The notes under the pieces are model-generated. The model was not told where the DNA came from. It was given only the letters and a program-made list of their open reading frames with translations, and ran no database searches. From NCBI GenBank assembly GCA_029907255.1, contig JARYMF010000001.1:248001-312000 (forward strand): a DNA stretch of 64,000 nucleotides, in the 5' to 3' direction. Shown one piece after another: positions 41,295-64,000 of the stretch; position 1 is the stretch's first letter, and each line of letters starts with the position of its first letter. The position numbers and the translations under genes were made by a program. This stretch comes from Armatimonadota bacterium. GTDB lineage: Bacteria > Armatimonadota > UBA5829 > DTJY01.

Positions 41295-41307
41295 AACGGG
41301 ATAAATA

Positions 41308-41763: not shown

Positions 41764-41853
41764 AATTCCGCAATTTTGCCAATAAACACTCCTTTTTTGC
41801 TTGAGGATTTACTTGCTGATGATTTAAGTAGTTGTTGCGAGGAGAATCAGAAA

Positions 41854-43521: not shown

Positions 43522-43991
43522 CAGGCTTCAGGCAGTCTTCAAAGGCTTGCCATTATCGATTAGCTATTTCTAGAGTTTTCCCAACACCAAATAGTATTCC
43601 AGGGCACTATTGAGTATTCATATTCAGATAGCTAATGTTAGATAGCAAAATATGTCTACCTTTAGTAGCTTCTCTTTGCCCGGGTTTCTGTGTTTAACAG
43701 ACTTTGCTTAAAAGTTTGAAATACGGCGGCGCATTTTAGCAGCGACTTACGTAATTAAAGAATGTAAGTCAATTTTCTGACGAAGTGGAGGATAGCAAAA
43801 CTTTTTATACTTTAGGATGAGCAATGGCCTTTTAATAAGCAAAATCTTATCAAGAGTATGTTGCTAACCGATTATAATGTTGTAGTTATTTGTGCTCACT
43901 AAGTTGGTTTTTAAGGAAGTCAGCCCAGGCCATTTGACTACCCCATAACGTAGTAATCAGCTTTAGCAAAAAAAACGAGGAGACTATAAGG
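43522..43991. other. Intergenic gap inside the Wood-Ljungdahl locus
   Basis: These 470 AT-rich bases separate fhs from cooS. I see no gene and no clear terminator. There is a 7-bp inverted repeat GACTTAC/GTAAGTC (43744-43750 and 43764-43770). A perfect TATAAT lies at 43873-43878 with a weak -35. The ribosome binding site AACGAGGAG is just before cooS. Confidence 0.45.
43850..43878 (+). promoter_or_regulatory. Possible promoter of the cooS-acs operon
   Basis: TCAAGA (43850-43855, 3 of 6), a 17-base spacer and a perfect TATAAT (43873-43878). It would give a leader of about 110 bases to the cooS ATG. The -35 box is poor, so an activator may be needed if it is real. Confidence 0.35.
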
Positions 43992-45872: not shown

Positions 45873-45943
45873 TTGCAGCCTGTTTTGTATGAAGCCAAAG
45901 CTTAAAGCCGGAACCAAAAGTTTAGGTAAACGAGAGGTGAAAA

Positions 45944-48121: not shown

Positions 48122-48146
48122 TTCGTTCAATTTAGGAGAAATAAAA

Positions 48147-49487
48147 ATGGCTTTGAAGGCTCTTGATATCTATAAATATTTACCAAAAACAAACTGTGGT
48201 AAGTGTGGCTATCCTACATGCCTTGCATTTTCTATGCAAATGGCGGCAAAAAAAGCGAACCTCGCAGACTGCCCGGAAGTTACCGAGGAAGCACGCGCCG
48301 CTCTTGAGGGTGCTTCGTCTCCCCCAATTCGCCTTGTAACTATCGGTGTAGGTGATAAAGCAATCCAAATTGGCAATGAAACTGTCCTGTTTCGTCATGA
48401 CGAAACGTTTTATCATCCAACCGGAATTGCTGTAAGGATTTCTGACGACGAGAAAGACGGAAAACTTGAAGCTGAGATTAAGGCAGTAAAAGCTCTTTCG
48501 TTCGAAAGGGTAGGACAGAGAATTGCCGTAGACATGGTTGCTGTGCATAACACTTCGGGTAGCAAGGCGAACTTTGTGGAAGTAGTTGAGGCAGTTGGGG
48601 AAACCGGTCTTGCACTAATTTTGATGTCTAAAGATATTGACACTCTGGCAGCGGCTCTGGACGTTTGTGGAGCAAGGCGACCATTGCTATACAAGGCTGA
48701 TGCTGGAAATTGGGAACAGATGGCAGAGCTTGCGCTGAAATACGGGGTTCCTATTGTTTTGGATGCGTCAAACCTTGCTGAAGCGGCTGATTTGACGCCA
48801 AAGCTGAACAAGGTTGGGGTGCACGACATTGTGCTTGACGTTACAGCGAATGGATTAGCTGAGACGTTGTCAGCTCTAACAAAAGTTCGCCGTCTAGCAC
48901 TACGAAAAGGTTTCCGTCCGCTTGGTTACCCTTGCATGGCAATTCCAAGCAGTTTAGATCCCGACCTAGCGGCACTCGAGGCTGCTACCTATGTAACTAA
49001 GTATGCAGCTATCACGATTGTTGATTCGAAAGAGCCGTGGAGAATCTTACCGATACTAACCGTGCGGCAAAATATCTTCACAGACCCAAGGAAGCCTGTG
49101 CAGGTCGAGCCAAAGGTATATGAAGTTGGGGCAGTTAATGATAAGTCCCCGCTATTGGTTACAACCAACTTCTCGCTAACATACTACACTGTCGAGAGCG
49201 ACGTGGAGGCAAGTCGTGTCCCGGCATATATAGCAGTAGTGGATACCGAGGGTACATCGGTGCTAACTGCTTGGGCATCCGAGAAGTTGACAGTCGACAA
49301 AGTAGCTAGACTCTTAAATTCCCAAGAAGTTCAGAGTAAGGTTTCACATAGAAAAGTAATAATCCCAGGTTATGTATCAGTTATGAGCGGCAAGCTTGAG
49401 GACGAATCAGGATGGAAGGTATTGGTTGGCCCGCGGGAGTCTTCAGGCATTCCGAAATACCTCAAAACGATGTGGAAAGCAGATTAG
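48147..49487 (+). CDS. acsC: Corrinoid iron-sulfur protein large subunit
   Basis: A 446-residue CFeSP gamma subunit. The N-terminal [4Fe-4S] domain has TNCGKCGYPTCLAF with a fourth Cys in ADCPEV (C-x2-C-x4-C-x16-C). The rest is the TIM barrel and cobalamin-binding domain, ending in MSGKLEDESGWKVLVGP. It carries the methyl group on cobalt from AcsE to AcsB. Its length equals that of the Moorella subunit. The gene begins 25 bases after acsB with AGGAG upstream. The small subunit (acsD) is separated from it by acsV and cooC. Confidence 0.95.
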   Translation: MALKALDIYKYLPKTNCGKCGYPTCLAFSMQMAAKKANLADCPEVTEEARAALEGASSPPIRLVTIGVGDKAIQIGNETVLFRHDETFYHPTGIAVRISDDEKDGKLEAEIKAVKALSFERVGQRIAVDMVAVHNTSGSKANFVEVVEAVGETGLALILMSKDIDTLAAALDVCGARRPLLYKADAGNWEQMAELALKYGVPIVLDASNLAEAADLTPKLNKVGVHDIVLDVTANGLAETLSALTKVRRLALRKGFRPLGYPCMAIPSSLDPDLAALEAATYVTKYAAITIVDSKEPWRILPILTVRQNIFTDPRKPVQVEPKVYEVGAVNDKSPLLVTTNFSLTYYTVESDVEASRVPAYIAVVDTEGTSVLTAWASEKLTVDKVARLLNSQEVQSKVSHRKVIIPGYVSVMSGKLEDESGWKVLVGPRESSGIPKYLKTMWKAD

Positions 49488-49546
49488 GATAATCTTTCGG
49501 CTATTGAGTTTTCCTGCCAGTTTCTTTTTACTCAAAGGCAACACCA

Positions 49547-51502
49547 ATGGATAAGCCTGCATCGAAAAACAAGTTAACAGTTACGTTTTTGCCAGACGAA
49601 AAAACGGTCTTGGTTGACTGCGGGAAGAGCATTTTAGAAGCCAGCATACTAGCAGGTATCCCAATCAACGCGAACTGTGGTGGCAAAGGAGTGTGCGGGC
49701 AATGCAAGGTCATTGTCAAGTCTGGAGAAGTAGATGCTGAGCCAACGTTTAATCTAACGAGCGAGGAAATCAAGCAAGGATATGTTCTTGCATGCAAGTG
49801 CCATGTGGTTGGAGATATGGTTGTTGAGGTGCCAGCCAAGGCGCGATTTGATGATATGCTTTACCCAAGAGGGAGTGATGATTTCGAGTCCGATTCTAGG
49901 CCAGCGCTGGTAGGAGTAGGCAAGCTTTACCCTCATGATCCGCTGGTAAAAAAAGTTTATATTAAAATGCCACCGCCAACATTGCAAGATAGCCTCAGCG
50001 ACATGGAGCGTTTGTTTAGGGAACTTAGGAAAGAATGCGGTTTAACGCAATTTCAGATTGATTTAGAGCAGTTGAGGCAATTGCCAAAGCTATTGCGGGA
50101 ACAAGACTGGAAAGTAACAGCTATGTTGAGTCAGTGCGGCAGTGCGGCTGACATAGTTCAAATACAGAGTGGCGATACGTCTGGCAGCAATTACGGTGTG
50201 GCGGTGGATGTTGGCACTACTACTATTGTAGCTTACCTCGTAGAATTGAATACATGCAAGACTATTGCAGGCGATTCGAAATATAACTCTCAGATACAAT
50301 ATGGCGAGGACGTAATTTCTCGAATAATGTTCGCAAATACAGAAGAAAAGCGCAATCAATTGTCTGCTTGTGTTGTAGCCGACATAAACAACCTGATTCA
50401 GAGGTTGGCTAAAACCGCTGGCATTGCTCCACATGATGTGAACTTTGTAATGTGCGCTGGTAATACGACAATGATTCACTTTTTGTTGGGTCTCGAACCA
50501 AGCAATATTCGTGTAGACCCGTATGTCCCGGTAGCAGTTGCACCTCCGGTGTTTTTAGCGGCTGAAGTAGGAATAAATATTAATCCATGCGGATTGCTGG
50601 GTTGTCTGCCGTCAGTTGCCTCTTATGTTGGAGGTGATATTGTCGCCGCCGTTTTGGTGTCCGGAATGCTCCAGTCTGAGTCACCTTCAATGTTAATTGA
50701 TTTAGGTACTAATGGAGAGATTGTTGTTGGCAACAAGGAATGGTTGGCTTGTTGCTCGGCTTCGGCAGGGCCGGCTTTTGAAGGTGGTGGTATCTCTTGT
50801 GGAATGCGGGCAACCATCGGGGCGATTGATAGAATTTCAATGGAAAATCGCGAAACAGTTTCTTATAACGTGATTGGTGGTGGAAGGCCACTGGGAATTT
50901 GCGGTTCTGGAATGATAGACGCAATTGCCGAAATGCTTCGCTGTGGTTGCCTTGACCGTAGTGGTGCTTTTGTTGCCAACAAAAATTCAAAGCGAATACG
51001 TGAGGGCGAGGAAGGTTTGGAATTTGTTCTCGTAGATGGCGATGAAACTGCCACTGGTAGAGACATAGTCATAACCCAAGCTGATGTGGAAAACTTTATT
51101 CGCTCGAAGGGTGCTATTTATCATGCGGCAGAGTGCTTGCTCGAGCGAGTCGGTATGTCTTTCCAAGATATTGAGTGTTTCTACATTTCAGGGGGTTTTG
51201 GGAACTACTTAAATGTGAGGGAGGCAATAACGATAGGGTTGCTACCCGACATCCAGGAGAATCGGTTCTGCTTCATCGGAAATGGATCAGTTCAGGGAGC
51301 GAAAACCGTTCTATTGTCAAGGCAGGCGTTTGAAGAAGCCAAGGCTGTTGCATCTAGGATGACATATATAGAGCTGAGTACCGACGCTAGGTTCATGAAT
51401 GATTACACGGCAGCGCTTTTTCTGCCACATACTGACATAGAAAAATTTCCGTCCGTGGTTGCAGAGATTGGACAAAACAACCAAAAGTTCAGATTAGGTT
51501 AG
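49547..51502 (+). CDS. acsV: Reductive activator of the corrinoid iron-sulfur protein (RACo)
   Basis: A 651-residue RACo-type protein (DUF4445/ASKHA ATPase). The N-terminal [2Fe-2S] domain has ANCGGKGVCGQCKV and a fourth Cys in LACKC. A linker then leads to the actin-like domain with DVGTTTIVAYLVEL (phosphate 1), LIDLGTNGEIVVG and ISGGFGNYLNVREA. RACo reduces inactive Co(II) CFeSP to Co(I) using ATP and a low-potential donor. It lies between acsC and cooC. The length is near that of known RACo proteins. Confidence 0.92.
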   Translation: MDKPASKNKLTVTFLPDEKTVLVDCGKSILEASILAGIPINANCGGKGVCGQCKVIVKSGEVDAEPTFNLTSEEIKQGYVLACKCHVVGDMVVEVPAKARFDDMLYPRGSDDFESDSRPALVGVGKLYPHDPLVKKVYIKMPPPTLQDSLSDMERLFRELRKECGLTQFQIDLEQLRQLPKLLREQDWKVTAMLSQCGSAADIVQIQSGDTSGSNYGVAVDVGTTTIVAYLVELNTCKTIAGDSKYNSQIQYGEDVISRIMFANTEEKRNQLSACVVADINNLIQRLAKTAGIAPHDVNFVMCAGNTTMIHFLLGLEPSNIRVDPYVPVAVAPPVFLAAEVGININPCGLLGCLPSVASYVGGDIVAAVLVSGMLQSESPSMLIDLGTNGEIVVGNKEWLACCSASAGPAFEGGGISCGMRATIGAIDRISMENRETVSYNVIGGGRPLGICGSGMIDAIAEMLRCGCLDRSGAFVANKNSKRIREGEEGLEFVLVDGDETATGRDIVITQADVENFIRSKGAIYHAAECLLERVGMSFQDIECFYISGGFGNYLNVREAITIGLLPDIQENRFCFIGNGSVQGAKTVLLSRQAFEEAKAVASRMTYIELSTDARFMNDYTAALFLPHTDIEKFPSVVAEIGQNNQKFRLG

Positions 51503-51511
51503 AGGTAAATC

Positions 51512-52258
51512 GTGGTTATTGCTGTATCAGGAAAAGGTGGAGCTGGCAAGTCAACGCTGGCGGCACTTATTGTTAGGCATCTGTTAGGGAAAAATGAAAA
51601 GCCTATTCTTGCGGTCGATGCTGACCCAAACAGCAACTTCGGCGATAAGCTAGGACTCATGGCTGATATAACAATAGGCAGTTTGAGGGAAGATGTACTC
51701 AAATCTAAATATGCTGGTCCTGCGGGGATACCAAAGCAAAACTTAATCGAGTATGGTGTTCAAGACGCTGTTGCTGAGGGAAAAGGTTTTGACCTGATGG
51801 TTATGGGGCGTGGAGAAGGCCCTGGGTGCTATTGCTCGGTGAACAACATGCTTCGAACCTTCCTACAAGGATTGTCTTCAAGATATAAACATGTTGTAAT
51901 TGACAATGAGGCTGGGATGGAGCACCTCAGCCGGCGCACGAATGACAAGGTTGATCTCATGCTCATTGTAAGCGACCAAACTCCTACGTGCATGCGGTCC
52001 GCAAAGCGAATTGCAGAGCTTGCTTGTGAACTGGAGGTAGTTCGTGGGCAAATGTGGCTGTTGCTCAATCGTGTTACCAATTGTGGGGAAGTCGAACGTT
52101 CTGCGAGGGAATACGTGGGGCTAGAACTACTTGGTTGCATTCCTGAAGATTCCCTAATTCAGAAATATGAGCTTGAGTGCAAGTCAATTCTGGACCTGCC
52201 GAATGATTCAAAGGCGGTGACAGCATTGGCTCAAGCATTCGAGCGCATTGGAATGTGA
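51512..52258 (+). CDS. cooC: CooC-type nickel insertion ATPase
   Basis: A 248-residue MinD/ParA-like ATPase. The deviant P-loop VSGKGGAGKSTLAALI opens the protein. A Cys-x-Cys motif lies in PGCYCSVN, the metal-binding pair of CooC/AcsF proteins that place nickel into CODH or ACS. IDNEAGMEHLSRR is the switch region. Translation starts at GTG with AGAGGTAA upstream, 9 bases after acsV. One CooC serves both nickel enzymes of this operon as far as the window shows. The gene could be called acsF instead; sequence alone does not separate them. Confidence 0.9.
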   Translation: MVIAVSGKGGAGKSTLAALIVRHLLGKNEKPILAVDADPNSNFGDKLGLMADITIGSLREDVLKSKYAGPAGIPKQNLIEYGVQDAVAEGKGFDLMVMGRGEGPGCYCSVNNMLRTFLQGLSSRYKHVVIDNEAGMEHLSRRTNDKVDLMLIVSDQTPTCMRSAKRIAELACELEVVRGQMWLLLNRVTNCGEVERSAREYVGLELLGCIPEDSLIQKYELECKSILDLPNDSKAVTALAQAFERIGM

Positions 52259-52302
52259 TTCTTCATTGATAATTTGGAGATACCAAAAGGAGAACAAAAA
52301 GT

Positions 52303-53286
52303 ATGACTTTTGAGGATCCTATAGAAAAGTGGTCATCTGGAGTTGCTACGGTTACCATAGGCGCCACAGCTTCAGAGGGTGGAACTCGCTGTAGAAAAAT
52401 AGACATTGGTGGTGCTACAACTCTTCCATTTTTAACGTTTGAGGGTATAACGCCAAATAAACCCGTAATTGCGATGGAAGTGCTTGATTGCATGCCTTCC
52501 GATTGGCCCGAAACTTTGATCAAGCCGTTTGCTGACGTTATAGGTAAACCAGGTGAGTGGGCAGCGAAGTGCGTAAGCCAATATGGCGCTGAGATGATAT
52601 GCCTCAAGCTTGAAGGCATTCATCCTGATTCAGAAGACAAGAGCCCAGATGAAGCGGTAAAGGTTGTTGAGGAAGTGTTAAAAGCGGTAGATGTTCCATT
52701 GGTGATTTGGGGTTGTGATGTTGATGAAAAAGACAACGTTGTTCTCCCTGCGTGCAGTCAGGCGGCGGCAGGTGAGAGATGCTTGATTGGCACAGCTAAG
52801 GAAGACAACTACAAGACACTTGTCGCGTCATGTATGGCAGATGGACATGCACTAATCGCGGAGTCTCCGCTTGACATTAATATCGCCAAACAGCTTAATG
52901 TGTTGATTTCCGAAATGGGCTTCCCCCTCAATCGAGTTGTAATGTATCCAACTACGGGCGGGCTTGGCTATGGCATCGAATATGCTTACTCAATCCAAGA
53001 ACGGGGACGGCTTGCGGCACTAATGGGTGATAAGATGATGTCACCTCCCGTCGTTTGCCAGATAGGGCAGGAAGCGTGGAATGCAAAAGAGGCAAAGGCA
53101 ACCACTGAGGAGGCACCTCATTGGGGACCAGCCGAAGATAGAGGCATAATGTGGGAAGCTATGACAGCTGTTATGCTGTTGCAGGCTGGTAGTGACCTGC
53201 TTATCATGCGCCATCCAAAAGCTGTAGCGATGGTCAAGCAGATTATTGATATGCTTATGGGTAAACAACAAGCTACTGAAAAATAA
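52303..53286 (+). CDS. acsD: Corrinoid iron-sulfur protein small subunit
   Basis: A 327-residue TIM-barrel protein of the CFeSP delta family. Visible family blocks are KIDIGGATTLPFLTFEG, PVIAMEVLDCMPSDWPETL, CLKLEGIHPDSEDKSPDEA and VVMYPTTGGLGYGIEYAYS. It pairs with AcsC and cradles the corrinoid; it has no iron-sulfur cysteines of its own. AAAGGAG precedes the ATG. It is placed after cooC and before acsE, so both CFeSP subunits are in the same transcript although not adjacent. Confidence 0.94.
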   Translation: MTFEDPIEKWSSGVATVTIGATASEGGTRCRKIDIGGATTLPFLTFEGITPNKPVIAMEVLDCMPSDWPETLIKPFADVIGKPGEWAAKCVSQYGAEMICLKLEGIHPDSEDKSPDEAVKVVEEVLKAVDVPLVIWGCDVDEKDNVVLPACSQAAAGERCLIGTAKEDNYKTLVASCMADGHALIAESPLDINIAKQLNVLISEMGFPLNRVVMYPTTGGLGYGIEYAYSIQERGRLAALMGDKMMSPPVVCQIGQEAWNAKEAKATTEEAPHWGPAEDRGIMWEAMTAVMLLQAGSDLLIMRHPKAVAMVKQIIDMLMGKQQATEK

Positions 53287-53309
53287 TTTATTGAAAGGAG
53301 ATTTTTCAC

Positions 53310-54098
53310 GTGATTATAATCGGCGAGCGCATCAATGGAATGTTTAAGGCTGTAAATGCGGCAATTCAAGAAAGAGATAAAGCTACAATCCAGGATCTTG
53401 CATTAAAGCAGGTGGCAGAAGGGGCAGACATGCTTGACATAAATGTGGGAACGGCCACGGAGGACCCAGTTGGAACCATGCGGTGGCTTGTTCAGACGGT
53501 TCGTGAAGTAACTGAAGTTCCTCTTTCGATTGACAGTCCCAATCTAGCAACAGTAAAAGCTGGATTGGAGGCTTGCTCAGGGCCAAAAATGATTAACTCG
53601 ACTACGGGCCAGGATGAGGTGCTCAATAATTTCCTTAGCCTCGCCAAAGAGTACGATGCATCCATTGTGGCTTTGTGCATGGATGAGAAGGGTGTGCCGG
53701 TTGACGTTGACGGGCGCGTGGAAATTGCCATGCGCGTGATAGCAAAGGCTATGGAGTTTGACGTTCCTATTGATAAGCTTTACATAGATCCTATTGTTCT
53801 ACCTGTAAAGGCCGACCAGACAGGTCCTGGGAAGGTGCTTGAGTCTATCAAGCAGTTCACAATGCTTTCGGAGCCAGCGCCGCACATTGTTATTGGATTA
53901 AGTAACCTTTCCCAAGGTGCTGTTGAGCGGAAGTTGATTAATCGAGTATTTTTAGCAATGGCTATTGGAATGGGGCTCGACACAGCAATTTTGGATCCCC
54001 TAGACACTGAACTAATGGATACTCTAATTACCGCAGAGATGTTAATGAATCGAACAATATACAGCGATTCCTTCCTAAAAGCGTATCGGCAGAGGTAA
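53310..54098 (+). CDS. acsE: Methyltetrahydrofolate:corrinoid iron-sulfur protein methyltransferase
   Basis: A 262-residue MeTr that moves the methyl group from 5-methyl-THF (the product of MetF/MetV) to the CFeSP. The pterin-binding barrel has GERINGMFKAVNAA, MLDINVGTATEDP, SIDSPNLATVKAG and GLSNLSQGAVERK with the conserved Asn, and DTAILDPLD near the end. The length equals that of the Moorella protein. It starts at GTG with AAAGGAG. It links the two branches of the pathway and is 3 bases ahead of the DUF3786 gene. Confidence 0.94.
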   Translation: MIIIGERINGMFKAVNAAIQERDKATIQDLALKQVAEGADMLDINVGTATEDPVGTMRWLVQTVREVTEVPLSIDSPNLATVKAGLEACSGPKMINSTTGQDEVLNNFLSLAKEYDASIVALCMDEKGVPVDVDGRVEIAMRVIAKAMEFDVPIDKLYIDPIVLPVKADQTGPGKVLESIKQFTMLSEPAPHIVIGLSNLSQGAVERKLINRVFLAMAIGMGLDTAILDPLDTELMDTLITAEMLMNRTIYSDSFLKAYRQR

Positions 54099-54101
54099 AG
54101 G

Positions 54102-54725
54102 ATGTTGCCTCCTGGTCAAAAACCATACGACTTGGCATTGCAGATAGGACTGGATGCGTTAGTCGAAAGCCCACCGTCAAAGGCAACACTTGAGGCACTT
54201 GGCGCGCGTAGAAAAGATAACGTAATCTTTGTCCCGGCGCTGAATAGGGTATTGCTTGTTGATTTACTGCGCCGAGATGTATTTGTAGAGGGCAATGGGA
54301 AGGCAAAACGCAAATGGGCTGTCCTGTGTGTTCATTACCTTGCCTCAAAGGATGTATCTGTCGACTCAAGGGAAATGACATTCAATAGATTTTTAGATGC
54401 TCAAAGCTATGGGATTGTTTACCAAAAGCGAATTATTGGGCGTTTTTTAGCGACTTCGGGAAGAACGGCTGAACAGTTTATCAAGTTGAGCGAGGAGCTA
54501 GGTGGGGAGCGCCTTCCTGAGCCAGGGGTTCGTTATAGATTTTTTATTTTACCCCGTGTGCCGGTTATCCTAGTTAGATATGAGGGCGATGAGGAAATTG
54601 GCCCAGGTGCAAATGTTATTTACCAAGCAGATGTCGAGCATCTTTTGCCAGCTGAAGATAGGGTAGTAAGTGCAGAACTCTTATTAGATGCACTTTCGGG
54701 TGTAGATATGATGGAGCCAAGCTAA
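54102..54725 (+). CDS. DUF3786 protein of the Wood-Ljungdahl operon
   Basis: A 207-residue soluble protein that I assign to DUF3786 from its C-terminal pattern: FILPRVPVILVRYEGDEEIG followed by ANVIYQADVEHLLPAEDRVV. The N-terminus starts LPPGQKPYDLALQ and shows ALGARRKDNVIFVPALN. There are no cysteine clusters, membrane segments or nucleotide-binding motifs. It begins 3 bases after acsE and ends the operon, so its product is made together with the CFeSP and MeTr. Such proteins are found in many anaerobes near corrinoid or CODH/ACS genes, but their job is not established. A role in corrinoid or CFeSP handling is only an inference. Confidence 0.75.
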   Translation: MLPPGQKPYDLALQIGLDALVESPPSKATLEALGARRKDNVIFVPALNRVLLVDLLRRDVFVEGNGKAKRKWAVLCVHYLASKDVSVDSREMTFNRFLDAQSYGIVYQKRIIGRFLATSGRTAEQFIKLSEELGGERLPEPGVRYRFFILPRVPVILVRYEGDEEIGPGANVIYQADVEHLLPAEDRVVSAELLLDALSGVDMMEPS

Positions 54726-54839: not shown

Positions 54840-55634
54840 TTATAGGATTCCGAGATTTGCTCTTGCTCCTGTGCATGGTCGGCATGTGGGATTTGTACAG
54901 AGCAAAATATCTGGCTTTTCTGAGATCATCTCTTGCACACGTTTTACCACATCTCTCCCAAACATCAGCTTAATGCGGGACGGGCCTATACGATAATCGC
55001 GTATTTCTCCATACCGTCTAAGCATATATTCCACCGCATCAAAGGCATTACTGCATGACGTTGAGGTATCAATTTGGTGTTCGTATATCGAACCGTCTGG
55101 CATAAGTACTTTGGCATAGGGTAGGTTTTCAGTCCAACCCACCTTTGGGACACCGGCGTATTCCTCACCTAGGTGAACTGTTGTATTGCTTGTGTTTGAA
55201 ACGCCAAGAAGTAGCACCTTCCCACCCATTTTGGCAAGCCGATCTATTGGGCTGCCTATTCCAACAGCACGGTAAGATAAATGATCTTTGGTTAATTCAA
55301 CTGCATCGGGTCCAATTACTGCAACAGAATGAGTTGGGTGAAGACTCCGAATAGCGTTTGGCCTTTTTCGTCCTAACTCGGGAATTATGCCGGTCAAACA
55401 CGGAGTCTCCGCTGGGTTGAAATATGGTTGAGCAATGTTTCCGGTATAGTTGAACGTAGGAAGCATCAGATTTCCACCGGGACTTATAGCTTCAATCAAC
55501 GCATCAATAACAGTTTCCGGTCCTCCTTCAACAGGACCTAAGCTTCGAAACGAGCTGTGTACAATCAGACTATCGCCTGGTGATAGTCCAGCTTCCCTGA
55601 GAGATTCGACGATTTCTTTCTTTGTTAGAGCCAT
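54840..55634 (-). CDS. AAC(3)-family N-acetyltransferase-like protein
   Basis: A 264-residue protein of the aminoglycoside 3-N-acetyltransferase fold (PF02522). Family motifs are DSLIVHSSFRSLGPVEGG, LMLPTFNYTG, RSLHPTHSVAVIGPDA and TVHLGEEYAG. The C-terminus has a small cysteine group, CTNPTCRPCTGAR, not part of the family core. Chromosomal homologues in non-producers usually act on other amines or have unknown targets, so resistance should not be assumed. It converges on the DUF3786 gene and has a good promoter of its own. It lies between the two anaerobic energy loci but shows no link to either. Confidence 0.82.
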   Translation of the reverse strand: MALTKKEIVESLREAGLSPGDSLIVHSSFRSLGPVEGGPETVIDALIEAISPGGNLMLPTFNYTGNIAQPYFNPAETPCLTGIIPELGRKRPNAIRSLHPTHSVAVIGPDAVELTKDHLSYRAVGIGSPIDRLAKMGGKVLLLGVSNTSNTTVHLGEEYAGVPKVGWTENLPYAKVLMPDGSIYEHQIDTSTSCSNAFDAVEYMLRRYGEIRDYRIGPSRIKLMFGRDVVKRVQEMISEKPDILLCTNPTCRPCTGARANLGIL

Positions 55635-56211: not shown

Positions 56212-58164
56212 ATGAGCTATGTTCTCACAACATGCGGGTTTTGCAGTTGCGGCTGTGCGATGTATGTGCAACAAGAAAATGGAAAAGTTACCGGACTTTT
56301 TCCTAGCGAGAATCACCCTGTTAGCAATGGCAGGCTTTGCATAAAAGGGTGGAATGCAACTCCCGCAATCCTAGGGGCTGATCGCCTAAGAAAACCCTTG
56401 GTTCGCCGCGGTGAACATCTTGAGGCTACTTCATGGGACGATGCTATTAATTACGCCGCTTCAGCGTTAAAGAAAATTATCTTTGAGTCCGGACCTAAAA
56501 GCATTGGGATTATAGGCTCAGCGAAGACCACAAATGAGGAATGCTATTCGCTGGTTAAGTTTGCCCGAAGTGTAATAGGAACCCCTAATATTGATGGTGC
56601 ATGTCGTTTTTATGATGCCTCCTTAATACCAGCACTCCTTGAAACGACTGGAACGCCTGGTTCACAAGTAGAGTTAAGTGCCATTCCAAAGGCTGGCTCC
56701 ATTCTAATCGTCGGGTCAAACGTTATGGAACAACTTGCACATGTCGGTTCGCGGATTGAGGATGCAGCCGACAACGGGTGCAAGGTAGTGGCAATAGACC
56801 CAAGGGAAACCAGACTTGCCCCACACACTAGTTTATGGCTCCATCCAAAGCCAGGGTCTGATCTTGCTTGGATTAGAGCATTTTTAAAGATTATTATTGC
56901 CGAAAGGCTTTATACGAAGAATGCTCCAGAGATGCCGGGCTTTGAAGAGCTCCGTGCTTCTCTTGAAGGCATAGAAATAAGCCAGCTTAAATATTCGTGC
57001 TGGCTTGAGCCGGCAGAGGTACACAAGGCCGTTGAACTTATCGCAAGCAATCCTCCCACTATCGTAATGTTTGGACTTGGTGCATTACAGCAACCTCACT
57101 CTACGGAAATTGTGAAAGGGCTTGCAAATATAGCCATACTCTTGGGAGGGTCAGTTATGACTCTCCGAGGCCAAAACAACGCCCAAGGGGCATGTGATGT
57201 TGGCTTAACGAATGATTTACTTCCGGGCTATCTGAAGCTAGCTGATCCTGTTGCAAGAAAAGTATGGGAACTAGTGTGGAATTGCCAGCTACCTGCAGAA
57301 CCTGGGATGACGGCCGTGGAGATGCTAAAAGCGTGCGAGTCAGGTACACTGAAGGCATTGTTGATCTTTGGCGAAAACGTTGCACTCTCGGCGCCGAACA
57401 CGCAGGCGACACTCTCAGCGTTAGATAAGGTAGGGTTTCTTGCTGTTTCCGATCTTTACTTAACAGAAACGGCGAAAATTGCTGATGTGGTATTCCCTGC
57501 ATGCTCGTTCTTGGAGAAAGATGGCACGTTTACAAACATTGAGCGCCGCCTCCAACGTGTTCGTAAGGTTCTTGAGCCAATAGGAGAATCAAAGTCTGAC
57601 CTTGAAATAATCGCCATGTTGGGTGCCGCGTTTGGTGCAAAAATGTCAGCGGACCCAGAGAAAGTAATGACCGAAATTTCTTCATCTGCTCCTATCTACA
57701 AAGGGCAATCATTCCGCCAGCTAGATGAAGAATGGGGACAGCCGTGGGTTCCTGTGGGAAGCGAAGCAAAGTTGGCGCCAATAGAAGCTGTTACTAAGGA
57801 TTCGGAGGGAGAATATCCATTCTATTTAATTGCCAGCCGAATCAACTTCCATCAGCAGACCGGCACAATGACAGCAAAGAGTAGTGTTCTGGCGCGTGAA
57901 TACCCTGAGACATTTGCCGAAATGAACGAGGCTGATGCAGAACGGCTTGGAATCAGACCTGGAAGTTCGATTAGAATCATTTCCGAAACGAACAGCCTAA
58001 CAAGGGTATTGTCGGTAAGTGAATCGGTGCCCAAGGGTTGTGTCCATGTGCCTCACTTTTTTGGAGGCAATTCGCCGAATGCGTTGGCTTCTTATGAAAC
58101 CGATCCAGTTTCGGGCGTTCCGATATACAAAGCTTATGCCGTGAAGATTGAGGCGGTGAGATGA
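56212..58164 (+). CDS. Formate-dehydrogenase-like molybdopterin subunit lacking catalytic Cys/Sec and His
   Basis: A 650-residue molybdopterin oxidoreductase. The N-terminal [4Fe-4S] ligands are C8, C11, C15 and C43, with Lys45 in LCIKGW. Formate-dehydrogenase landmarks follow: LRGQNNAQGACDVG (near 319), FLEKDGTFTNIERRLQRV and HQQTGTMTAKS near the C-terminus. At the molybdenum ligand, expected as NIDHCARxCH, the protein reads NIDGACRFYDAS: Tyr134 replaces Cys/Sec and Asp135 replaces His. The DNA (TTT TAT GAT) is unambiguous. It cannot use the standard formate dehydrogenase mechanism, and may bind a different metal form, oxidise another substrate or only carry electrons. It overlaps the next gene by 4 bases (ATGA), so they are translated together. 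Confidence 0.85.
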   Translation: MSYVLTTCGFCSCGCAMYVQQENGKVTGLFPSENHPVSNGRLCIKGWNATPAILGADRLRKPLVRRGEHLEATSWDDAINYAASALKKIIFESGPKSIGIIGSAKTTNEECYSLVKFARSVIGTPNIDGACRFYDASLIPALLETTGTPGSQVELSAIPKAGSILIVGSNVMEQLAHVGSRIEDAADNGCKVVAIDPRETRLAPHTSLWLHPKPGSDLAWIRAFLKIIIAERLYTKNAPEMPGFEELRASLEGIEISQLKYSCWLEPAEVHKAVELIASNPPTIVMFGLGALQQPHSTEIVKGLANIAILLGGSVMTLRGQNNAQGACDVGLTNDLLPGYLKLADPVARKVWELVWNCQLPAEPGMTAVEMLKACESGTLKALLIFGENVALSAPNTQATLSALDKVGFLAVSDLYLTETAKIADVVFPACSFLEKDGTFTNIERRLQRVRKVLEPIGESKSDLEIIAMLGAAFGAKMSADPEKVMTEISSSAPIYKGQSFRQLDEEWGQPWVPVGSEAKLAPIEAVTKDSEGEYPFYLIASRINFHQQTGTMTAKSSVLAREYPETFAEMNEADAERLGIRPGSSIRIISETNSLTRVLSVSESVPKGCVHVPHFFGGNSPNALASYETDPVSGVPIYKAYAVKIEAVR

Positions 58165-59240
58165 AAAAGGATTACTCGATTTTAAAAAAATCTGACGTGC
58201 CAGCTTTTTTTGCAAGCTTGGCTAATGAAATGCAGCTCATTGGTCCCAAGCAGTTATTTTCAGGTGATGTAACTTTCGACGTCATCCAATCACATAAGGA
58301 CATTTATTGGGACTATGGCCATGTAGTTTATCCTCCAAAGCGCTTTTTACTGCCACACTTTGAGGACATGTTCCGCTATACTTGTGACCAGGAGATTAAA
58401 ATTGAGCCTACATGTAATCCACAGCCCCAGGCAATCGTAGGAATCAGGTCATGCGATGTAGCCGCAATTAGGTTTCAAGAGAACTTTTTTTCCTATCCGA
58501 TAGTGGACCCATACTATAAGGAACATCTGAATAACACAGTCCTCTTCAATCTTGTGTGCAATACGCCGCCTAAAAAGGAATGCTTCTGTATATGTTGTGA
58601 TTCCGGTCCATGGCTCGAATCAGGTTTTGATGTCCAATTGACTGACCTTGGTGATCGTTTTCTTTATGAGGTAGGATCCGACAAAGGAGAAAAGGCAACG
58701 GAGCCAAGGGCATATATGCTTTTGCCGGCAACGCCCGCTGATATCGAAGCACGGCGTCAAATTGAACTTCAAGCCGACTCTCGCTTCCAAACAGTGTCTT
58801 ATGTTGCAAAGGCAATAAACTTCATTTCTGCTGATGAGGTGCCGGCAAAAATCTGGGAGGATTTGGGTTCAACTTGTTTTAGGTGTGGTGCTTGTACGAA
58901 CCTTTGTCCCGTGTGTACTTGCTTTACAGTGGATGACCGCGAAGAATCCGACGGGACCTTTACTAGGTGTCGGTCTTGGGATTCCTGCCAGTACGCTGGT
59001 TTTACTAGAGAAGCAAGTGGACACAATCCCAGGCCAACATTTGGAAGTCGAGTGGCTCGAAGGTTTTACCATAAGACGTCATACCAATATATAATTCGCG
59101 ATGGACGGCATGGTTGTGTTGGTTGCGGCCGTTGTATAACCGCATGCTTGACGAAGCTTGGATTGCCGGATGTAGTGAAGCGCATCAGGCGAGAAATGCA
59201 TGAATTCTTGCCGCCCAAAGAAAAGGCTGCCGAGGTGTAA
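58161..59240 (+). CDS. HydB/AsrA-like iron-sulfur electron-transfer subunit
   Basis: A 359-residue protein of the sulfhydrogenase beta/anaerobic sulfite reductase A family, matching the usual length of HydB. The N-terminal part has PQAIVGIRSCDVAAIRF and a cysteine group in KECFCICCDSGP. Two [4Fe-4S] motifs lie near the C-terminus: CFRCGACTNLCPVCTCF and CVGCGRCITACL. It should pass electrons between the flavoprotein encoded next and other subunits of the complex. The ATG overlaps the stop of the molybdopterin gene and the following gene starts 2 bases after its stop. HydB and AsrA cannot be separated by motif, but the hydrogenase context favours HydB. Confidence 0.85.
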   Translation: MKKDYSILKKSDVPAFFASLANEMQLIGPKQLFSGDVTFDVIQSHKDIYWDYGHVVYPPKRFLLPHFEDMFRYTCDQEIKIEPTCNPQPQAIVGIRSCDVAAIRFQENFFSYPIVDPYYKEHLNNTVLFNLVCNTPPKKECFCICCDSGPWLESGFDVQLTDLGDRFLYEVGSDKGEKATEPRAYMLLPATPADIEARRQIELQADSRFQTVSYVAKAINFISADEVPAKIWEDLGSTCFRCGACTNLCPVCTCFTVDDREESDGTFTRCRSWDSCQYAGFTREASGHNPRPTFGSRVARRFYHKTSYQYIIRDGRHGCVGCGRCITACLTKLGLPDVVKRIRREMHEFLPPKEKAAEV

Positions 59241-59242
59241 AA

Positions 59243-60127
59243 ATGGTTCTAACTCCAGCAAGGCCTAGGAGAATGTGGGGCGTAACAGATCAACCAAGCG
59301 CCAATCTATATGTGCCAATGATTGCAATAGTACAAGAAATCATTGATGAGACGCCCGACACAAAAACTTTTCGCCTAGCTTTTGAAGATAAAGAATATGC
59401 CAAATCTTTTGAGTGGGAGCCAGGCCAATTTGTCGAAGTAACTGTTTTTGGTGCAGGCGAAGCCCCAATTGGATTTGCTTCCGACCCTAACGAGAGGTCA
59501 TTTTTCGAAATTACAGTGGTCGAGCGCGGAAAAGTCACTAGGGCAATGCATGCTCTTAAGAAAGGCGACAAAGTTGGAATTCGTGGGCCATTTGGCAATT
59601 GCTGGCCACTTGAGGATATGAAAGGAAAGAATGTCCTGATTGTTAGTGGTGGCTGTGGTCTTGCACCACTTCGACCTGCAATTTTGCAAATACTAGCTAA
59701 TAGGAAAGAATACGGCAATTTCTTGTTGCTATACGGCGCTCGGACCCCGGCAGATAGAAATTATAAATATGACCTGGATGCATGGGCGAAAAGGGATGAT
59801 ATGCAAGTCCTTGAGACGGTGGACGTAGGAGATGAAAGCTGGAAGGGCAATGTGGGCGTTGTTACAACCCTTTTTGATAAAGTGAAAGTTGATGGCGAAA
59901 ATACCGTTGCCTTGACCTGCGGCCCACCTATAATGATTAAGTTTGTGACTTTAGAGCTTCTAAAAATGGGATTCTCGGCAGACAGAATTGTTACCAGTCA
60001 AGAGCGCTATATGAAGTGCGGAGTTGGGAAGTGCGGTCACTGTTGTATAAACCATGTTTATCTCTGCACCGAGGGCCCTGTTTTTACTTATGCTCAGATG
60101 AAAGAACTATTTGAGCTCAAATTATAA
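59243..60127 (+). CDS. HydG/AsrB-like FAD/NAD(P)-binding subunit
   Basis: A 294-residue ferredoxin-NADP reductase family protein, the gamma (diaphorase) subunit type of sulfhydrogenases. The FAD domain has WEPGQFVEVTVFGAGEAPIG, the NAD(P) domain has VLIVSGGCGLAPLRPAI and TCGPPIMIKFV. A C-terminal [2Fe-2S] site is seen in YMKCGVGKCGHC with a further Cys in VYLCTEGP. It should exchange electrons with NAD(P)H and hand them to the HydB-like subunit. With it the complex can couple pyridine nucleotides to the membrane hydrogenase. Whether NAD or NADP is used is not clear from the sequence. Confidence 0.88.
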   Translation: MVLTPARPRRMWGVTDQPSANLYVPMIAIVQEIIDETPDTKTFRLAFEDKEYAKSFEWEPGQFVEVTVFGAGEAPIGFASDPNERSFFEITVVERGKVTRAMHALKKGDKVGIRGPFGNCWPLEDMKGKNVLIVSGGCGLAPLRPAILQILANRKEYGNFLLLYGARTPADRNYKYDLDAWAKRDDMQVLETVDVGDESWKGNVGVVTTLFDKVKVDGENTVALTCGPPIMIKFVTLELLKMGFSADRIVTSQERYMKCGVGKCGHCCINHVYLCTEGPVFTYAQMKELFELKL

Positions 60128-60133
60128 GCAAAA

Positions 60134-60604
60134 ATGATTGAAGAGCTGGCGGCGGGATTATCTGGAAAAGCTGTTGTAGTAGGCGTTGGACAATTAGGTC
60201 ATGGTGATGACGGCGCAGGCATATTAGTTGCAAGAATGCTTGCTGAAAGCGGCATTGTGCAAGTTATAGAAAGTGGCAATGCGCCGGAACTCGATACGTG
60301 GCGTATCCGCGAGATGGCGCCTGATTATGTGCTATTTATTGACGCGGTTGATTTCAACGGTTCTCCTGGTGAGATTGCGCTTTTGCAATCTTCTGAGCTG
60401 AATGCTTCAGGATTAGATACTCATCGGGCGCCGTTGAAACTCACAATGGAATATTTAGAAAGTGAGCTGGGTTGTAAATGCCGTCTGCTCGCAATCCAAC
60501 CCCTTAGCGTTCGATATGGAGCACCAATGAGCGAAGATGTGAAACGCTCTGCAATTAATATTTTCAATATGCTTTCTCAGTGCATATTGGCATGCAAGTG
60601 CTGA
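60134..60604 (+). CDS. HycI-type hydrogenase maturation protease
   Basis: A 156-residue endopeptidase of family A31. The start reads VVGVGQLGHGDDGAGILVA, matching the G-x-G-N-x-x-x-x-DDG core with its metal-binding Asp, though the Asn of the GN pair is Gln here. ESGNAPELDTWRI and FIDAVDFNGSPGE carry the second acidic site. It cleaves the C-terminal extension from the [NiFe] large subunit after nickel insertion. The large-subunit gene starts 12 bases later and does have such an extension, so enzyme and substrate sit side by side. This supports assembly of an active [NiFe] centre. Confidence 0.87.
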   Translation: MIEELAAGLSGKAVVVGVGQLGHGDDGAGILVARMLAESGIVQVIESGNAPELDTWRIREMAPDYVLFIDAVDFNGSPGEIALLQSSELNASGLDTHRAPLKLTMEYLESELGCKCRLLAIQPLSVRYGAPMSEDVKRSAINIFNMLSQCILACKC

Positions 60605-60616
60605 CGGGAGAGAACG

Positions 60617-62299
60617 ATGGTAAAAGAGCAAGAATTTCTAATGGAACTATGGACACATTTTCCTGACATGCTTCAAGATCTTCAAGAGCATGTCAGGAAT
60701 CAATATGTGGCAACGATTCCTCGCGAAGTTTTGCCAGCGGTAGTGAAACATGCTGTCAAGCAACTTGGCGCTAGGTTTGTTATTACTGTTGCGACTGATA
60801 TGCGGCAAAAGACCGGAGATTACCGGATATCCTACATTCTTGCTTTTGATAAGCAAAAGAAATTTCTTGTGCTCCAGTCGGCTGTTCCTCCCGATGACAT
60901 GAAGATAACTTCCGTAACCCCTGATATTCCTGCAGCAGGCTGGGCTGAACGCGAAGCATTTGATGTAATGGGCATAGTGCCTGTTGGGCATCCCGATCCG
61001 CGAAGGCTTATTCTACCTGACGACTTCCCACAGGGAGTTCATCCATTAAGGCGAGAATTTGCATATAATGAGATTTTCCCTCAAGAGCCAAATATGCCGC
61101 CAAGGAAGCCGGCACCTGAAGGAACAACCGTTGTGCCCCTTGGCCCGTTCTACCCAACATTGGAAGAGCCAGCATACTTCAGGCTATTTCTTGATGGCGA
61201 GCGTGTAGTTGGGTCTGATTATCGTGGTTTCTACAACCACCGGGCGGTAGAGAAGCTAGGTGATAGTGAGCTCAATTACAATCAAATCCCATTTGTTGCG
61301 CAGCAAATATGCGGTATCTGTGGGCAAGTCCATTCGTGTGCATATGCCCAGGCGGTTGAGGATGCATGCGGGATTGAAACTCCGATAAGGGCGAAATATA
61401 TACGCTCGCTTCTTCTAGAACTAGAGCGCATACATAGTCATTTGCTGTGGGTTGGGCTTGCTGGTCATATTATTGGCTTCGATACGATATTAATGCAGGC
61501 TTGGCGAATCCGTGAGCCTGTTATGTGGCTGATGGAGCGCGTAACTGGTAATCGCAAGCATTACTCATCTAATTTGATTGGCGGTGTGCGCTTTGACATT
61601 GATGAGACAGCGGCTGAGGACATCAGACGAGTTATGGATAAAGTTGAGCAAGAATTAAAAGCCGTTGTTGACGCAATTTCAATCGATACAACCCTGATGG
61701 CTCGTCTCAAAGGCGTTGGGATACTCACCGAAGAAGATGCTCGTGCCATTGGGGTAGTAGGCCCAGTAGCTAGGGGATCAAACGTTCCTATAGATTGTAG
61801 GGTCGACCATCCTTATGCGGCATATGAGTACTTAGACGTGCAGATACAAGTTCAGGATGGATGCGATTCGTGGGCAAGAACCATGGTAAGGGTCCTTGAG
61901 CTCTTCGAATCAATCCGCCTGGTGCGCAAGATTTTAGACGATATGCCAGGCGGTCCGGTGATGGCAAAAGTTGACCATGAGCTTCCGTCTGGACGAATAG
62001 GGCTTTGCTCGGTTGAGGCTGCAAGAGGCGAATCTCATCACTATGTTCTTACAGGTGATGAAAACAGACCCTATAGGTGGCGAGTGAGGGCGCCTACATA
62101 TCCGAATCTACAGGCAGTTGGTGTTATGATCATGGGCTTAGAGTTGGCGGATGTGCCAATAAGCATTGGAAGCTATGACCCTTGTTTCTCGTGCACTGAG
62201 CGCGTAGAGACCCTTGATGTAAATACAAAAGAAATTCGCATTTACACCAGGGAAGAGCTTGAGGAAATGTGCAAGCGAAAGACCTGGGAAAAGGAGTAA
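60617..62299 (+). CDS. Group 4 [NiFe] hydrogenase large subunit, NuoC/NuoD fusion
   Basis: A 560-residue protein: a NuoC-like domain (about 1-150; WAEREAFDVMGI is its signature) joined to a NuoD/HycE-like catalytic domain. The nickel ligands are complete: ICGICGQVHSCAYA (C232, C235) and DPCFSCTER (C523, C526). This rules out complex I proper, which has lost them. After Arg529 a 31-residue tail remains, as expected for removal by the HycI-type protease encoded just upstream. LLELERIHSHLLWVGLAGH and LIGGVRFDI match HycE/Hyf/Mbh proteins. It should interconvert protons and H2 at the inner face of the membrane. The exact group 4 subtype needs a tree. Confidence 0.92.
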   Translation: MVKEQEFLMELWTHFPDMLQDLQEHVRNQYVATIPREVLPAVVKHAVKQLGARFVITVATDMRQKTGDYRISYILAFDKQKKFLVLQSAVPPDDMKITSVTPDIPAAGWAEREAFDVMGIVPVGHPDPRRLILPDDFPQGVHPLRREFAYNEIFPQEPNMPPRKPAPEGTTVVPLGPFYPTLEEPAYFRLFLDGERVVGSDYRGFYNHRAVEKLGDSELNYNQIPFVAQQICGICGQVHSCAYAQAVEDACGIETPIRAKYIRSLLLELERIHSHLLWVGLAGHIIGFDTILMQAWRIREPVMWLMERVTGNRKHYSSNLIGGVRFDIDETAAEDIRRVMDKVEQELKAVVDAISIDTTLMARLKGVGILTEEDARAIGVVGPVARGSNVPIDCRVDHPYAAYEYLDVQIQVQDGCDSWARTMVRVLELFESIRLVRKILDDMPGGPVMAKVDHELPSGRIGLCSVEAARGESHHYVLTGDENRPYRWRVRAPTYPNLQAVGVMIMGLELADVPISIGSYDPCFSCTERVETLDVNTKEIRIYTREELEEMCKRKTWEKE

Positions 62300-62305
62300 C
62301 GGCAA

Positions 62306-62836
62306 ATGTTCAAAGCCAAACTAAAGGAAGCTGTGATATGCTTTGGGGCAGGCCGGGTCACGCTTAAATATCCTTTTGAGCCGGTAAAAGTACCGCCAAA
62401 GTTCCGCGGGAAGATCGAATTTGATGCGCGAAAATGCATTGGATGTGGCGGATGTGCAAATGTTTGTCCGCCAAGATGCATTGTTATAGAGGATATAGGA
62501 GAGATTGCAAAGATTACGTTCTATCTCGACAGGTGCATTCAATGCGCAAGATGTTATGAGGTTTGTCCCGAAAAAGCAATTTGGCCAACTGGCGAATTTG
62601 AAACAGCTACACCGGATAAAAGCGACCTGAGGTCTGATATGACAATATGGATGTCAACCTGTCAGCGGTGTGGGCGGTGCTTTGAGACCGAGAACGCAAT
62701 TGATAAGTTTCCAAGCAAGCGATGGCGAGGAAGAGGCCCCGGTGAGGAAAACAAGCACGGCATCTTTCCTGTCAAACCGCCGATTGAGTTCGTCCAGCGG
62801 ATGTCGCTTGTGCGTGAAAGCGAGGAAAAAATATGA
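62306..62836 (+). CDS. NuoI/HycF-like 8Fe-8S ferredoxin subunit of the hydrogenase
   Basis: A 176-residue polyferredoxin. Two classic [4Fe-4S] motifs are present: CIGCGGCANVCPPRC and CIQCARCYEVCP. A third, incomplete group reads STCQRCGRCFETENA with only three cysteines, which is not part of NuoI. The protein links external donors to the proximal cluster of the NuoB-like subunit. It starts 6 bases after the large subunit gene and overlaps the next gene by 4 bases (ATGA). Its highly basic C-terminus (KRWRGRGPGEENKHG) lacks known function. Confidence 0.88.
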   Translation: MFKAKLKEAVICFGAGRVTLKYPFEPVKVPPKFRGKIEFDARKCIGCGGCANVCPPRCIVIEDIGEIAKITFYLDRCIQCARCYEVCPEKAIWPTGEFETATPDKSDLRSDMTIWMSTCQRCGRCFETENAIDKFPSKRWRGRGPGEENKHGIFPVKPPIEFVQRMSLVRESEEKI

Positions 62837-63354
62837 TCGCAGGACTTTGCAAGAAGATGTTTCCCAAATCACTCTGGTTGTTCCATACCAACTGTGGTGC
62901 ATGCAACGGCTGCGATATTGAGGTCATTGATGTCCTAACGCCATACTATGACGTTGAACGTTTTGGTATGAAGTTAGTTGGAAGCCCTCGTCATGCAGAT
63001 GCTTTGGTGATTTCGGGTTCGGTTAGCAGGCAAGTAGCACCTGCACTGCGCCGCCTCTATGACGCAACACCAGATCCAAAGGTCATAATAGCCGTTGGCT
63101 CATGCGCTGTGGGAGGAAACATTTGGTTTGATACATATAACGTTCTCGGTGGGGCGGACAAGGTTGTGCCAGTGCACATGTACATCCCAGGATGTCCTCC
63201 AAGGCCAGAAGCAATAGTTTATGGCGCAGCGTTGGCTTTGGGTCTTGTGCCCAAGAAAGTGAGTGCACAGCATGAGAGCCATCTTCCGCCAGGATTTAAC
63301 CTAGACGAGTATCTTGAAGCTTGGAAGGATACACCTGTCATAACCCGCAAGTAG
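62833..63354 (+). CDS. NuoB-like small subunit of the group 4 hydrogenase
   Basis: A 173-residue small subunit holding the proximal [4Fe-4S] cluster. The cysteines are in TNCGACNGCDIEV (C21 and C24, with C27 nearby), IAVGSCAVGGNIW and IPGCPPRPEAIVYG. The NCG-x-CNGCDIE form is that of Ech/Hyc/Mbh hydrogenases rather than complex I. It transfers electrons from the ferredoxin subunit to the [NiFe] site. Its start overlaps the preceding stop, and the membrane subunit gene begins 18 bases after its own stop. Confidence 0.9.
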   Translation: MIAGLCKKMFPKSLWLFHTNCGACNGCDIEVIDVLTPYYDVERFGMKLVGSPRHADALVISGSVSRQVAPALRRLYDATPDPKVIIAVGSCAVGGNIWFDTYNVLGGADKVVPVHMYIPGCPPRPEAIVYGAALALGLVPKKVSAQHESHLPPGFNLDEYLEAWKDTPVITRK

Positions 63355-63372
63355 AGGAAGTGAGGACTGGAG

Positions 63373-64000
63373 ATGCAACCCTTGGCAGTTGCGGTAGTCG
63401 CAATTCCATTTTTAGGCGCGGTAGCATGTCTTGCTGTAAGGGACCGGGCATCCAAACCAACTGCAATCTTAGCGACCGCGCTCACGGCTATTGCTGCGGT
63501 TTTGGTAGCGGTATATATGCCGAATGAAACATATCAATTTGGTAGCATGCCCTGGCTTGGAGAGTCGGCAAAGGGGCTTTTTGGCTACCAGTTTGACCCG
63601 CTGGCATTAATTATGTTGTTAGCCTCGACGATAATTGGGGCAATTATAGCAATTTATTCTGCGGGATATTTGTCACCAGTAAATGCAGATCATCCCTTAG
63701 GTGGCGGGTATGCTAGGTATTATTTTTGGCTACTGGTATTCGTTGGCTCAATGGTAGGGATTGCCGTTTCGCCTACGCTACTTCAATTACTAATTTTTTG
63801 GGAAATGACGACTCTTACCTCATGGGCTTTGATATCATTTTATGACAATACTGAAAGCTTAAAAGCAGGAATGAAGGCGCTGGTAATGACATCAATCGGC
63901 GGCCTCTTTTTTATTACAGGGTTGGTTTGGGTCTTCAGCGCAACAGGGTCAATGAAATTCTCTGCCTTAGGAGAAATGCCTATAGGTGTGCGTGCCGGAG
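63373..64000 (+). CDS. NuoL/HyfB/MrpA-like membrane ion-pumping subunit, N-terminal part (cut by window edge)
   Basis: The frame opened by the ATG at 63373 (MQPLAVAVVAIPFLGAVACL) stays open to the last base, so about 209 residues are visible. It has several hydrophobic segments and WEMTTLTSWALISFYDNTES, matching the WE-x-x-x-L-x-S-x-x-LI-x-F block with the key Glu of proton-transporting subunits. The next segment carries KALVMTSIGGLFFITG, with the conserved Lys. It should couple the hydrogenase to proton or sodium movement across the membrane. It follows the NuoB-like gene with GAGGACTGGAG upstream. Further membrane subunits are expected beyond the edge. Confidence 0.87.
   Translation, partial: MQPLAVAVVAIPFLGAVACLAVRDRASKPTAILATALTAIAAVLVAVYMPNETYQFGSMPWLGESAKGLFGYQFDPLALIMLLASTIIGAIIAIYSAGYLSPVNADHPLGGGYARYYFWLLVFVGSMVGIAVSPTLLQLLIFWEMTTLTSWALISFYDNTESLKAGMKALVMTSIGGLFFITGLVWVFSATGSMKFSALGEMPIGVRAG

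Follow-up and report, generated by a model that had tools for sequence, protein, structure and literature searches.

What does a hydrogenase operon do with a formate dehydrogenase (FDH) that no longer has its catalytic residues? This question is raised by a 64,000-nucleotide stretch of an Armatimonadota genome (hereafter the window: bases 248001-312000 of the 358 kb contig JARYMF010000001.1; genome 3.23 Mb, 99.7% complete), near the end of which begins an operon encoding an FDH-like protein (FdhA-like), a HydB/HydG diaphorase module and a group 4 [NiFe] hydrogenase. An earlier reading of the window from its letters and open reading frames (the sequence-only reading) had proposed that these parts, not usually combined, could form an ion-pumping membrane complex that balances NAD(P)H, ferredoxin and H2. 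We consider it probable that the operon encodes one membrane complex, in which an ion-translocating HycE/Hyf-type group 4 [NiFe] hydrogenase would be linked to NAD(P)H via HydG-HydB, with the inactivated FDH serving as a NuoG-like relay or as a structural subunit.

An FDH-like subunit without a formate site

The FdhA-like protein aligns with FDHs over its full length, and its AlphaFold2 model (pLDDT 90) matches FDHs in Foldseek at TM-scores of 0.92-0.95. In FDH Fdh3 of Thermococcus onnurineus, the catalytic residues are Cys133-His134-Arg324 (PMC8965080). At the Cys/selenocysteine (Sec)-His position of FDHs, the FdhA-like protein has Tyr134-Asp135, while it retains the Arg (R319) and all four Fe4S4 cysteines; the label "pseudo-formate-dehydrogenase" given by the sequence-only reading is thus correct. 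A Sec encoded by TGA at the catalytic position was considered and rejected, since there is no in-frame stop and the aligned residue is Tyr, whereas TGA does occur at this position in true FDHs from the same search. The loss is general: none of about 40 relatives from a survey of the phylum (described below) has Cys/Sec-His, and all true FDHs compared have the pair. The Arg is also lost outside the window's class, within which R319 and an RGQNN motif are retained, and the Fe4S4 cysteines are kept across the full-length FdhA-like sequences with the sole exception of L193. The protein is under purifying selection (ratio of nonsynonymous to synonymous substitution rates, dN/dS, 0.11 against a same-genus genome), and its closest counterparts in named records, at 60-61% identity, come from Armatimonadota metagenome-assembled genomes (MAGs). 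The FdhA-like (p1) tree has long branches and a midpoint root and was not used to decide between one and several losses. In one genus (L170, L173 and L174) the FdhA-like protein is reduced to about 533 aa with all four Fe4S4 cysteines retained, as if only the Fe4S4 domain were still needed.

The genes for the molybdenum cofactor point the same way. MoaC and MoeA were not found in this genome (G000) or in G001, G003, G012 and G019, all of which are at least 97% complete and carry the operon, and the same searches detected both proteins in G017, G034, G036 and G048. FdhD was not found in the same five genomes either, which is weaker evidence because it is missing from G017 and G036 as well; MoaE is uninformative as a marker, being absent also from relatives that have other cofactor genes. 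Judged from its gene content, this genome appears to have no capacity to synthesise the molybdenum cofactor. Since cofactor genes are present in G034, G036 and G048, cofactor loss alone does not account for the missing formate site, which is characteristic of the system itself. In addition, the genome yielded no PF00384 match and no molybdopterin-type oxidoreductase other than the FdhA-like protein. Tyr-Asp in place of the catalytic residues, the lack of any second PF00384 protein and the absence of MoaC, MoeA and FdhD from the search results together make formate chemistry very unlikely for this subunit, and leave it with a presumptive structural or Fe-S relay role.

One may argue that, through an unusual active site, the operon product still works as a formate hydrogenlyase (FHL) or as a reversible FDH-hydrogenase hub, in which the FdhA-like protein oxidises formate and sends electrons to both H2 and NAD(P)+. 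The protein scores strongly against the TIGR01591 Fdh-alpha model (495 bits, though under the cut-off of 666), the window's class keeps R319 and RGQNN, in two loci (L053 and L064, below) HydB/HydG and a hydrogenase accompany an intact FDH, and the passages searched of a 2023 Armatimonadota study link group 4b hydrogenases to FDH, carbon monoxide dehydrogenase (CODH) or glutamate synthase (PMC10290634). Nevertheless, we regard this as hardly credible, given a catalytic pair missing from every survey member, an Arg also lost outside the window's class, five genomes in which the three cofactor-related genes were not found and no other PF00384 protein in the genome. A plain FHL, one of the known types that the sequence-only reading had named as weakening its claim, is ruled out by the active-site residues and the cofactor genes not found.

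The hydrogenase core and the diaphorase module

Among solved structures, the large subunit is nearest to Escherichia coli HycE (423 bits, against 260 for Mbh). It is a NuoC-NuoD fusion with a C-terminal extension and is accompanied by a HycI-type protease, as befits the group 4 HycE/Hyf type; the extension and both NiFe ligand motifs (CGIC, CFSC) are also present, the motifs intact, in all full-length relatives. In the HycE tree, which bears on placement in HydDB subgroup 4a or 4b, most members group together, with E. coli HycE in a polytomy and Mbh outside (references: E. coli HycE, Pfu Mbh and unnamed sequences). The membrane arm comprises a NuoH-like and three antiporter-like subunits, of which HyfD was assigned by family search and HyfB, HyfC, HyfE and HyfF by sequence and conserved order, and the expected Glu/Lys residues are kept in HyfB and HyfF. 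A genome-wide look for [NiFe] large subunits turned up none besides that of the operon, whose product is thus the only [NiFe] hydrogenase detected, next to one [FeFe] hydrogenase. The genome's only other NuoD-type protein lacks NiFe ligands and is encoded in a complex I-like NuoA-B-C-D cluster (L197:14099-16670, contig C2). This cluster may lack a canonical NADH module, because no NuoG of the PF00384 kind was found in the genome.

The second and third proteins of the operon match sulfhydrogenase I beta (HydB) and HydG/AsrB, respectively, and the HydG of the window has intact NAD(P)-binding and [2Fe-2S] motifs, which its relatives conserve. In a quick tree search, HydBs from these operons came out as a single clade apart from FDH-linked HydBs (SH-aLRT 98). 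A second HydB/HydG pair lies elsewhere in the genome (L196:4672-11567, contig C4), behind HdrC, HdrB, HdrA, MvhD and FrhB/FdhB-like genes named from sequence reading, which suggests a Flx-Hdr-type complex there.

Conservation of the operon across the phylum

To what extent do the three parts travel together? A HydB profile (A3) was searched in 291 Armatimonadota genomes, 90 of which matched at E < 1e-60, and stretches around the strongest HydB matches were annotated with the window's proteins, giving 39 loci from 12 families and 25 genera. FdhA-like, HydB and HydG stand beside Hyf-type genes in 38 of the 39, and the remaining locus is truncated where its contig ends. A same-genus genome repeats all 14 genes in identical order. 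Two arrangements occur: the window's class has HycE-F-G followed by HyfD-B-C-E-F, and many other loci have HyfD-HyfB-HycE-HyfC-HycF-HyfE-HyfF-HycG. This adjacency, together with the single HydB clade, bears out the proposal that the diaphorase module, the dead FDH-like protein and the ion-pump-equipped hydrogenase belong together, and it is because the operon structure is conserved that we read its products as one membrane complex.

The same evidence speaks to the possibility, also raised by the sequence-only reading, that the triplet of FdhA-like, HydB and HydG is a soluble NAD(P)H enzyme in its own right, sharing no more than a transcript with the hydrogenase. HydB/HydG do serve soluble sulfhydrogenases, hydrogenase-free FdhA-HydB-HydG triplets occur with intact FDHs in other phyla, and T. 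onnurineus Fdh3 is a soluble NADP-dependent FDH (PMC8965080). However, the triplet with this HydB clade keeps company with Hyf-type genes throughout the loci just described and across both gene orders, HycI usually follows directly behind the triplet, and no further catalytic site, which a soluble enzyme would require, is encoded. We therefore hold a separate enzyme to be quite improbable.

Outside the phylum, the view comes from one contig scan with narrow patterns, in which dead FdhA-like proteins appeared only in Armatimonadota records, one of them titled Hebobacteria. In L053 (a Clostridia MAG) and L064 (an unclassified bacterium), an intact FDH with the Cys-His pair occurs with HydB, followed by HydB-HydG and Hyf/Mbh-like hydrogenase genes; these loci are a possible active-FDH counterpart of the Armatimonadota system.

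Comparison with known systems

The closest described layout is that of Saganbacteria RX5A, reported in 2019 as an "enigmatic" group 4 hydrogenase with Mrp-like subunits, CooF, AsrA and AsrB, whose molybdopterin oxidoreductase was an FDH by Hidden Markov Models (HMMs) and not by phylogeny, and remained unclassifiable (PMC6349859). According to the passages searched, that locus is related to ones in Zixibacteria and Omnitrophica, and an Mbh-like function was proposed (PMC6349859). By described gene content, the basis of this comparison, it has the same gene kinds as the Armatimonadota operon. Hence a layout of this kind had been described before. The passages searched of PMC6349859 and PMC10290634 mention neither lost catalytic residues nor an NAD(P)H-linked reading, and those of PMC6349859 do not mention missing cofactor genes; most subscription literature lay outside the search.

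Among better-known systems, E. coli FHL-1 (Hyc, 7z0s/7z0t) and FHL-2 (Hyf) share the HycE-type fused large subunit, HycF, HycG, NuoH-like and antiporter-like subunits, HycI and an FdhA-family partner with a [4Fe-4S] cluster, whereas the Armatimonadota operon has a dead FDH partner whose gene lies inside the operon, lacks HycB and adds HydB/HydG. Moorella thermoacetica Fdh-Ech (PMC13040438) and Thermococcus litoralis Fdh-Mhy (PMC2432063) likewise combine FdhA and a group 4 hydrogenase in one cluster, but they are described as active FDHs and no HydB/HydG module is described for them. T. onnurineus Fdh3 shares FdhA with NAD(P)-binding and Fe-S proteins, but is cytoplasmic, has an active Cys-His-Arg and includes no hydrogenase (PMC8965080). 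Pyrococcus sulfhydrogenase I (HydBGDA) has the HydB/HydG diaphorase in a cytoplasmic enzyme with group 3b HydA/HydD, a partner that was not found here. Complex I with its NuoG/NDUFS1 offers a functional parallel: there too, a subunit of FDH descent that does no formate chemistry stands next to a module oxidising NAD(P)H, on a NuoBCDHIL-type core; in the Armatimonadota operon, HydG/HydB stand in place of NuoE/NuoF and the terminal site is [NiFe] rather than quinone.

A proposed electron path and its energetics

In the E. coli FHL, HycB bridges FdhF and HycF. Because no HycB is encoded in the Armatimonadota operon, HydB probably takes its place between the partner and HycF. Electrons would then pass from NAD(P)H to the flavin (FAD) of HydG, its [2Fe-2S] cluster, the HydB clusters, the FdhA-like cluster (unless this subunit is only a scaffold), HycF, HycG and finally the NiFe site, with the inactivated FDH taking the role that NuoG has in complex I. 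The C-terminal Cys cluster of HycF (119, 122, 125) lies at the region where E. coli HycF binds metal near the FdhF interface, which is compatible with docking of the FdhA-like subunit there. Electron flow would be coupled, reversibly, to H+ or Na+ movement, and the coupling to the membrane arm may be conformational, by analogy with the complex I superfamily (PMC9474812).

On textbook potentials, H2 formation from NADH sits near equilibrium at about 10 Pa H2 and becomes unfavourable at higher pressures; with NADPH as donor it yields about 14 kJ/mol at 10 Pa, and the reduction of NAD+ by H2 yields 18-26 kJ/mol at 1 bar. Since these values place the reaction near equilibrium, the complex is plausibly reversible: at high H2, the reduction of NAD(P)+ by H2 could pump ions, while H2 production from NAD(P)H would need low H2, or NADPH as donor, in order to pump, and would otherwise be driven by the ion gradient.

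A different electron source is conceivable, namely a complex fed mainly by ferredoxin, as Mbh or Ech are, in which the NAD(P)H module makes for confurcation of reduced ferredoxin and NAD(P)H to H2. Ferredoxin is a frequent electron donor of group 4 hydrogenases, HycF and HydB carry many Fe-S motifs, and T. onnurineus Fdh3 uses both NADP+ and ferredoxin (PMC8965080). On the other hand, the operon showed no recognised bifurcating-flavin module and HydG has one FAD-type domain, so that confurcation seems unlikely, with a modest chance of being right.

Several points weigh against the NAD(P)H-linked membrane complex that we favour. Membership of its subunits rests on operon structure, and both the link of HydG/HydB to the hydrogenase and the place of the FdhA-like cluster on the electron path are predicted. 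No HycB-type four-cluster ferredoxin bridge is present among the 14 operon genes. Moreover, the window's class conserves R319 together with much of the FDH pocket, so that, on sequence, the FdhA-like subunit might still bind a pterin.

Evolutionary and metabolic implications

What the FDH-derived subunit of complex I originally did is a matter of debate. The Armatimonadota system bears on this debate if, in this phylum, FHL-type complexes gave up formate chemistry and acquired an NAD(P)H module, turning an inactivated FDH into a NuoG-like subunit, either as an independent parallel to, or as a surviving analogue of, the step from an FHL-like ancestor to complex I. This scenario is tentative and has somewhat less than an even chance in our estimation. 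An FHL-type ancestor of complex I was raised by the FHL structure paper, but FdhF docks otherwise than NuoG (PMC9474812). If the scenario is true, a living and widespread FHL-like complex with a dead FDH and an NAD(P)H module makes the FHL-to-complex I transition testable. In practical terms, annotation of such operons as formate dehydrogenase plus hydrogenase would mispredict the formate metabolism of Armatimonadota.

In this genome, a Wood-Ljungdahl cluster lies upstream of the operon and encodes MetF, MetV, formate-tetrahydrofolate ligase, CODH, acetyl-CoA synthase, AcsC, RACo-like, CooC-like, AcsD and AcsE proteins, with names taken from sequence reading and not from family searches. A DUF3786 gene ends this run. 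As no FDH was found in the genome, a methyl branch starting from formate would need another source of it; RnfC was likewise looked for and not found. Given the Wood-Ljungdahl cluster, the lack of a detectable FDH and the lack of RnfC, the operon complex is a candidate for the energy-conserving, redox-balancing step of this genome. The specific link to the Wood-Ljungdahl pathway made by the sequence-only reading did not hold up as a conserved arrangement: the operon flanks differ in G003 and G012, where the adjacency is not kept, and a functional tie is therefore a suggestion only.

Gene content and genomic setting

The operon consists of 14 same-strand genes, eight of which begin inside the window and six past its end (Table 1), in the order FdhA-like/HydB/HydG, HycI, HycE-F-G, membrane arm HyfD-B-C-E-F and HypAB. 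Successive genes in the window are spaced by -4, +2, +6, +12, +6, -4 and +18 bases (+, gap; -, overlap), all within the 20 bases first described. HMM family searches, from which the gene assignments in the window derive, back all the gene kinds named at the outset (molybdopterin protein, HydB/HydG pair, protease and NuoCD/I/B/L-like subunits), and the sequence past position 64000 supplies the rest of HyfD and then HyfB, HyfC, HyfE, HyfF, HypA and HypB, extending the operon beyond what the window could reveal. An assembly artefact or a pseudogene is ruled out by the open frame, the dN/dS given above and conservation in 25 genera. Promoter and terminator scans gave fewer matches than in shuffles.

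Table 1. Genes of the operon and its upstream neighbours, in window coordinates
Feature	Length	Position	Strand	Remarks
Wood-Ljungdahl cluster		40347-54098		
DUF3786 gene		54102-54725		
Antibiotic_NAT gene		54840-55634	-	AAC(3)-family-like
FdhA-like subunit	650 aa	56212..58164	+	FDH fold; Fe4S4 ligands C8 C11 C15 C43 kept; Y134-D135 at catalytic Cys/Sec-His; R319 kept
HydB/AsrA-like Fe-S subunit	359 aa	58161..59240	+	best solved relative sulfhydrogenase 1 beta, 9nez
HydG/AsrB-like FAD, NAD(P), [2Fe-2S] subunit	294 aa	59243..60127	+	NAD(P)-binding and iron-sulfur motifs intact
HycI-type maturation protease (for large subunit)	156 aa	60134..60604	+	family search
HycE/HyfG-like NuoC-NuoD fusion, large subunit	560 aa	60617..62299	+	CGIC and DPCFSCTER [NiFe] motifs; C-terminal extension
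HycF/HyfH (NuoI-like)	176 aa	62306..62836	+	two 4Fe-4S motifs and C-terminal Cys 119/122/125
HycG/HyfI (NuoB-like) small subunit	173 aa	62833..63354	+	proximal-cluster motif CGACNGC
HyfD (NuoL/M-like) antiporter-type subunit	501 aa	63373..64000, on to window-equivalent 64878	+	cut by window end
HyfB, HyfC, HyfE, HyfF, HypA, HypB		to about 71140 (L002:1898-8141)	+	after HyfD

The divergent Antibiotic_NAT gene just upstream of the operon scores far under every NCBIfam resistance cut-off, and it adjoins the operon in the same-genus genome too (L004).

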